Below are positions 58-39,881 of a DNA stretch of 39,884 nt, piece by piece. Origin of the DNA: Chromatiaceae bacterium (lineage in GTDB: Bacteria > Pseudomonadota > Gammaproteobacteria > Chromatiales > Chromatiaceae); the NCBI GenBank assembly GCA_028277905.1, contig JANQFI010000136.1, forward strand, positions 1-39,884. Direction: 5' to 3'. The translations under genes were made by a program, and so were the position numbers. Below the pieces are notes generated by a model. It did no database searches. It was not told the DNA's origin and worked only from the letters and a program-made list of their open reading frames with translations. The stretch's first letter is position 1, and each line of letters begins with the position of its first letter.

Positions 58-748
58 GTGACCGAAAGATCCGCAGGATGGGCTTCTGGAAGATCCGTCC
101 GACCGGGGCGCGAGTCCACGGGGCAGCAGCATCCCGTCGAGATCGACGAGACACTCATTGGGGGCGCCACGCAAGGCGAAGGGCGCGGGCGGCACCACAA
201 CACGCTGGTCGTCGGCGCGGTTGAGGTCATGGCGCGGACCGACGGGAAGTGGAACGGCCGCGATCCGAACCTTCCGCGCGGCCAACATCGCGGCGGGCAT
301 GGGCGGGGTGTTGTTGCGGGCCGTTTGCGGTTGCAAGTCGTGCCCGACCACAAGCAGGAAACGCTGGTCGCGTTCGTCCAAGCGAGCATCGCGCCCGGCG
401 CAGCAGTGCGGACGGACGGCTGGATCGGCTATGCCCCGCTGGCGTCGCTCGGCTACCGCCACATGCCCGTCGCTGTGCGGGGCGACCAGGCCAAGACAGC
501 TGAGCATCTCCCGATGCTTCACCTCGCATTCAGCATACCTGGACGCATGGCTGCTGGTGACCCACCACGGGGTCTCGCCACAACACCTGCAGGCGTACCT
601 CAATGGGTACGTCTTTCGCTTCAACCGGAGGTTCTGGCCGATGGCCGCCTTCGACGCCGTCCTCGGATTGGCGCTGCGCCGACGGGCTCCCACCTCCGCG
701 GGTCTTTATGGCGGGGAGTGCCAGCACCCAGACGGCCGAGTGCCATGA
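58..748 (+). pseudogene. IS1595-family (ISXO2-like) transposase, N-terminally truncated and frameshifted
   Basis: Frame of ORF 58 reads PVEIDETLIGGATQGEGRGRHHNTLVVGAVEV...GRLRLQVVPDHKQETLVAFVQASIAPGAAVRTDGWIGYAPLASLGYRH; near 525-540 the homology moves to the frame of ORF 158 (YLDAWLLVTHHGVSPQHLQAYLNGYVFRFNRRFWPMAAFDAVLGLAL). This is the ISXO2-type DDE domain; the N-terminal zinc-ribbon part is absent. Confidence 0.8.
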
Positions 749-768: not shown

Positions 769-927
769 AGGCGATTTCTGTCAACAAACATGCCGCCTGG
801 CTTGTTTTCTCGCCCGCCTGCTTTGTCGCGGCAACGCGTACAGAGAACGACTATGCACGCGCTGCCGCTTCGCGAAGGCAGACGAGAATCCTGCGCCATT
901 CGGTATGTTTGTTTCCGGCAATCGCCT
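769..927 (+). mobile_element. MITE-like palindromic element, copy 1 (159 bp)
   Basis: AGGCGATTTCTGTCAACAAACA...TGTTTGTTTCCGGCAATCGCCT; 22-bp imperfect terminal inverted repeats; near-identical copies at 33778-33936 (inverted) and 39723-39881. Confidence 0.85.
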
Positions 928-33777: not shown

Positions 33778-33936
33778 AGGCGATTGCCGGAAACAAACAG
33801 ACCGAATGGCGCAGGATTCTCGTCCGCCTTCGCGAAGCGGCAGCGCGTGCATAGTCGTTCTCTGTGCGCGTTGCCGCGCCAAAGAAGGTGGGCGAGAAGA
33901 CAAGCCAGGCGGTATGTTTGTTGACAGAAATCGCCT
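33778..33936 (-). mobile_element. MITE-like palindromic element, copy 2 (159 bp, inverted relative to copies 1 and 3)
   Basis: Reverse complement matches copy 1 (769-927) along its full length; ends AGGCGATT...AATCGCCT, flanked by TA on both sides if the element is taken as GGCGATT...AATCGCC. Confidence 0.85.
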
Positions 33937-39722: not shown

Positions 39723-39881
39723 AGGCGATTTCTGTCAACAAACAGACCGCCTGGCTTGTCTGTTCGCCCGCCTTCTGCGTCGCGGCAGCGGGCACAGAGC
39801 TCGACTATGCGCCCGCTGCCGCTCCTTGAAGGCGAGCGAAAATCCTGCGCCATTCGGTATCTTTGTTTCCGGCAATCGCCT
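39723..39881 (+). mobile_element. MITE-like palindromic element, copy 3 (159 bp)
   Basis: AGGCGATTTCTGTCAACAAACA...TTTGTTTCCGGCAATCGCCT; same length and orientation as copy 1. Confidence 0.85.

Follow-up and report, generated by a model that had tools for sequence, protein, structure and literature searches.

A mobile, non-autonomous 157-bp hairpin element with TNA target duplications in Chromatiaceae and beyond

The window analysed here, the whole 39,884-nt stretch of contig JANQFI010000136.1 from a Chromatiaceae bacterium, contains a 159-bp repeat and raises the question of what this repeat is and how it spreads. An initial annotation had described it as a MITE-like family with three copies, and we found all three where it had placed them, with the ends it had reported (Table 1). 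No match to these copies appeared in 100 shuffles. Copy 2 is 95% identical to copy 1, while copy 3 is 85.5% identical to it; two subfamilies are thus present, with copy 3 belonging to the second. Only 3 bp separate copy 3 from the contig end. Directly to the left of copy 1, at window positions 58–600, lies a fragment of an IS1595-type transposase (PF12762). An Rfam scan of the window matched only the bacterial class A RNase P RNA (RF00010, 8043–8492) and no family for the 159-bp element.

Table 1. Positions of the repeat copies and of selected sequence blocks in the window
Feature	Position	Strand	Description
Copy 1	769–927	+	159 bp; element proper 770–926; flanks 767–769 TTA / 927–929 TGA, unmatched
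Copy 2	33778–33936	-	159 bp; element proper 33779–33935; flanks TTA/TAA, unmatched
Copy 3	39723–39881	+	159 bp; element proper 39724–39880; flanks TAA/TAA, matched
Left terminus of copy 1, AGGCGATTTCTGTC	769–782	+	near-invariant in 24 sequences, many genera
Right terminus of copy 1, TCCGGCAATCGCCT	914–927	+	near-invariant in 24 sequences
Left-arm block, alignment columns 16–22	784–790	+	lineage-variable, yet largely able to pair with its right-arm counterpart

When the element is compared with its own reverse complement, about 68–70% of positions match over all 159 bp. It is predicted to fold as a single hairpin over its entire length (-77.4 kcal/mol and z = -7 as RNA, z = -5 as DNA). The terminal inverted repeats of 22 bp that had been proposed correspond to the base of a much longer imperfect palindrome, which takes in the entire element. 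In being short, lacking a transposase gene and consisting of an inverted repeat over its full 157 bp, the element resembles a MITE.

We examined the conservation of this fold in an alignment of 24 sequences from the element-bearing lineages. In this alignment, 93.5% of the cells are paired, and 28 of the 48 hairpin pairs have changed on both sides. The covariation score was 0.380, compared with 0.114 for shuffles that keep the relatedness of the sequences and 0.058–0.079 for slid structures; the structure was derived from the same alignment and is thereby favoured over the slid ones, but the margin is still large. Nine pairs of the terminal helix never vary among the 24 sequences and the adjoining mismatches are nearly fixed. 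The terminal 12 bp or so are near-invariant across genera, fixed mismatches included. The element is a hairpin over its whole length with conserved compensatory changes, a feature that the first reading had missed. Replication can correct quasi-palindromes, and the compensatory changes might have come about through template switching between the arms rather than through selection. Internal deletion derivatives of the element do occur, as would fit such events. However, correction should erase asymmetric mismatches, and those within the terminal 14 bp are conserved with few exceptions in the 24 sequences. We therefore regard this origin of the changes as highly unlikely.

The repeat had been suggested to be a high-copy family, and this was borne out when the element's own and related genomes were searched for copies beyond the window. 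The window genome is a metagenome-assembled genome (MAG) of 5.12 Mb in 711 contigs, 86% complete, whose genus is Thiohalocapsa by inference. When up to 3 mismatches were allowed, the end motif matched it 1,076 times, compared with 3 times for a reversed control, which corresponds to roughly 500 copies. The exact-ends pattern occurs 197 times at the right spacing. At 22 of the 34 contig ends examined, a copy lies within 200 bp, which indicates that the assembly breaks at the element and makes chimeric joins likely. To a large extent, the fragmentation of the assembly is thus explained by the repeat.

Inspection of the flanks showed that the duplicated target is not TA, as had been considered earlier, but a 3-bp TNA within a CTNAG-like site; once the TNA is counted, the element proper measures 157 bp. 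Among 76 pooled copies from other genomes, all with T at -2 and A at +2, 69 have the same middle base in both TNA triplets. Over all copies the agreement is 88%, compared with 39% expected by independence. The triplets match in 26 of 27 copies from Halochromatium glycolicum and in about 11 of 12 from Thiococcus (G053), but in only 19 of 42 from the window genome. Since so many of the sampled contig ends lie in a copy, the mismatches there are probably due to wrong joins at the repeat; recombination between copies is another possible cause. About two thirds of the sites have C before and G after the TNA, pointing to CTNAG as the preferred site.

The alignment of flanks with empty sites in relatives, which had been proposed as a check of the insertion boundaries, yielded one gap-free site that fits them. 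When the flanks of the copy at G000:C16:7800-7958 are joined, they align without gaps to the relatives G007 and G008, where TTA is counted once, as expected for an insert of 157 bp plus one extra TTA; the corresponding stretch of G007 reads as an open coding frame. This evidence amounts to a single insertion compared with two relatives; the remaining alignments were too gapped or ended short of the junction. We could also observe adjacent copies of the element (L084:349-665, L071:1-261 and L081:29-368). In the first two of these, a single base separates the copies when each is counted as 159 bp, and they would share one TNA, as if one element had inserted at the end of another. Of the initial proposal, the non-autonomous mobile family stands, upheld by the copy number, the TNA duplications and the empty site, while the TA target and the restriction of the inverted repeat to 22 bp do not. 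We regard it as well supported that the repeat is a non-autonomous hairpin which is mobile and duplicates TNA.

Matches were obtained in 15 of 94 genomes from 10 genera, although several are weak or incomplete. At least 10 genera, from Chromatiaceae to Ca. Accumulibacter, contain elements that share these ends and in most cases measure exactly 159 bp. Among the matches listed for GTDB species contigs, the both-ends pattern was found in Thiohalocapsa, Halochromatium, Lamprobacter, Thiococcus and Thiorhodococcus as well as in Sedimenticola, Ca. Accumulibacter and several MAGs; single MAG hits may result from binning errors. A spread sample of the class gave exact matches in 2 of 369 genomes, the window's own and one from another family (104 matches), indicating a patchy distribution. 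The copies in H. glycolicum are on average 98.6% identical, i.e. they have spread recently. Plasmid and phage records contained no match to the element, and a search of viral contigs with a 15-base end motif gave 17 hits and 0 full elements, so carriage by plasmids or phages was discarded. The family is known from Chromatiaceae and beyond, and its span of many genera had been missed in the first reading.

We next turn to gene context, which was scored on joined flanks because the element itself breaks an ORF. The ORF calls rest on a simple codon model. Outside the window genome, loci were picked with the exact-ends pattern, and copies sharing a genome are not independent. With these definitions, 15 of 92 classified copies lie inside ORFs, as compared with 929 of 1,439 control CTNAG sites (p = 4e-20). 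The family is dispersed, multi-copy and mostly intergenic, as is typical of MITEs. Copies are depleted between divergent genes (8/77 vs 111/510, p = 0.02), enrichment between convergent genes is not significant (p = 0.08), and in tandem contexts there is no strand bias relative to the neighbouring genes (20 same, 20 opposite).

These data bear on the possibility that the repeat is kept as an RNA or DNA element of the host, for instance as a terminator or an mRNA-processing hairpin in the manner of ERIC, and that its mobility is secondary. The stable predicted hairpin, the intergenic bias and the depletion between divergent genes would agree with such a role. Against it stand the absence of an orientation bias, the non-significant convergent enrichment and the 15 of 92 copies inside ORFs, and purifying selection alone would yield a bias away from genes. 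Near-identical, lineage-specific copies with fresh duplications argue for selfish spread, and maintenance as a host element appears distinctly improbable to us. Taken together, the covariation and the absence of strand bias make selection on the fold by way of mobility a plausible inference.

The search for a mover covered IS5-type Pfam families, and the ends were checked for the loci returned. None of the PF13340 loci returned in 57 genomes had the element ends, nor had the PF01609 loci returned from the element's own genome and eight element-bearing entries (two being the same genome) or the PF13586 loci returned from eight such entries (again with two from the same genome). Terminal inverted repeats identical to those of an IS1031-type insertion sequence were likewise absent from the returned loci of all three families. 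A full-length transposase bounded by AGGCGATT...AATCGCCT, which the initial annotation had suggested as a search target, was not found among the IS5-type loci and the listed end-motif matches. End motifs without the element interior were sought in 21 genomes; those fetched from the matches listed represent 3' ends of group II introns, hairpin families of other kinds, deletion derivatives or chance sites.

Three candidates were set aside upon inspection. An inverted pair of ends 1.6 kb apart (L353) spans a long ORF resembling cysteinyl-tRNA synthetase, a second inverted pair (L246) rests on a chance site, and a repeat of H. glycolicum that ends in CGGCAATCGCCT and looked like an insertion sequence corresponds to the 3' end of a group II intron (RF00029). 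At eight contig ends of H. glycolicum (L334-L341), the same group II intron terminates with its 3' end directly before CGGCAATCGCCT-TNA, and RF00029 was matched in the three that were checked; the right end of the element may be a homing site of the intron. A putative group II intron domain V-like remnant, assigned by similarity to the H. glycolicum intron end, is located inside another copy of the element (L076:394-800, G000:C93). Derivatives of 20 bp and about 60 bp with intact termini (L284:4072-4097, L285:3840-3865 and several G028 contigs) end at short direct repeats (CAAT, CTGGC) and are likely hairpin-promoted deletions. Other palindromic families with unrelated interiors and TNA-GGYGATTTC ends occur in Thiorhodococcus minor (L342-L348) and in G033 (L299-L302).

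The 3-bp TNA duplication suggests a DDE transposase acting in trans as the simplest mover. We consider it probable that the repeat is a MITE-like, ERIC-like 157-bp hairpin, that a TNA-specific DDE transposase moves it in trans, and that its fold is also under selection. An enzyme with a TNA target, like those of the IS1031 group within IS5, would act on the invariant ends, and the extruded hairpin would be kept because it matters for mobility or makes the host tolerate the element. Counting against this model, no autonomous element with these ends turned up among the genomes searched. The low agreement of the TNA triplets in the window genome likewise counts against it. Compensatory change in the stem, moreover, is not needed by an ordinary double-stranded DNA transposon.

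Alternatively, the folded single strand itself could be the substrate of transposition, as in attC cassettes or IS200/REPIN-like elements, with the TNA repeat arising from second-strand processing. The fixed mismatches at the ends would then mark the strand, and the stem would be free to vary as long as it remained paired. This would account for the compensation along the whole stem and the near-invariant asymmetric termini of the 24 sequences (T9 opposite C; TC opposite TC). The even split of orientations, which speaks against transcripts being the target of selection, would fit as well. So would the recurrent internal deletions of ~60 and 20 bp; their ends hint at short direct repeats, and they are compatible with hairpins forming in vivo. 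However, it is DDE enzymes that typically duplicate a palindromic target by a fixed 3 bp, and no candidate recombinase was identified. To our knowledge, HUH elements leave no target duplication. We consider single-strand transposition an unlikely explanation. It is rather improbable that an enzyme recognises a folded, asymmetric single-stranded hairpin and yet leaves a TNA duplication, its gene being, RAYT-like, not flanked by the element's own ends.

The probable reading, movement in trans by a DDE transposase, can be compared with known systems. The IS1031 group of IS5 uses a TNA target with a 3-bp repeat (PMC12016507), a duplication common to both, although no GGCGATT-ended IS1031-type element was present in the genomes searched. 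ERIC/IRU/RU-1 is a short, mostly intergenic hairpin of fixed length with a duplicated target, for which a transposase was proposed without experimental support (PMC2229807); at 127 bp and with TA termini, as opposed to 157 bp and TNA, it differs from our element in length and termini. Correia/NEMIS and RUP are likewise non-autonomous hairpins, of about 100–155 bp, with target site duplications and TA instead of TNA termini (PMC2229807); for RUP an IS630 partner was proposed, whereas no partner was found here in the loci searched. The DGR loci of Thiohalocapsa PB-PSB1 contain arrays of stem-loop MITE-like repeats that were matched to the terminal inverted repeats of intact insertion sequences (PMC10907252). 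Those repeats come from the same host genus and resemble the element by their description. REPIN/RAYT elements are also high-copy palindromes of bacterial chromosomes, but here TNA is duplicated. We know of no target duplication for REPINs, which carry a GTAG/CGTC tag. Integron attC sites are imperfect hairpins with conserved ends and a variable, complementary stem. Despite this similarity, our element differs from them in its target duplication and fixed length, and no attC R and L boxes were seen by eye at its ends.

Palindromic mini-elements such as ERIC have long been without a known mover. Here, near-invariant ends, a defined TNA target, many lineages with compensated stems and fresh copies in the isolates Halochromatium glycolicum and Thiorhodococcus minor make both the mover and the need for the fold directly testable.
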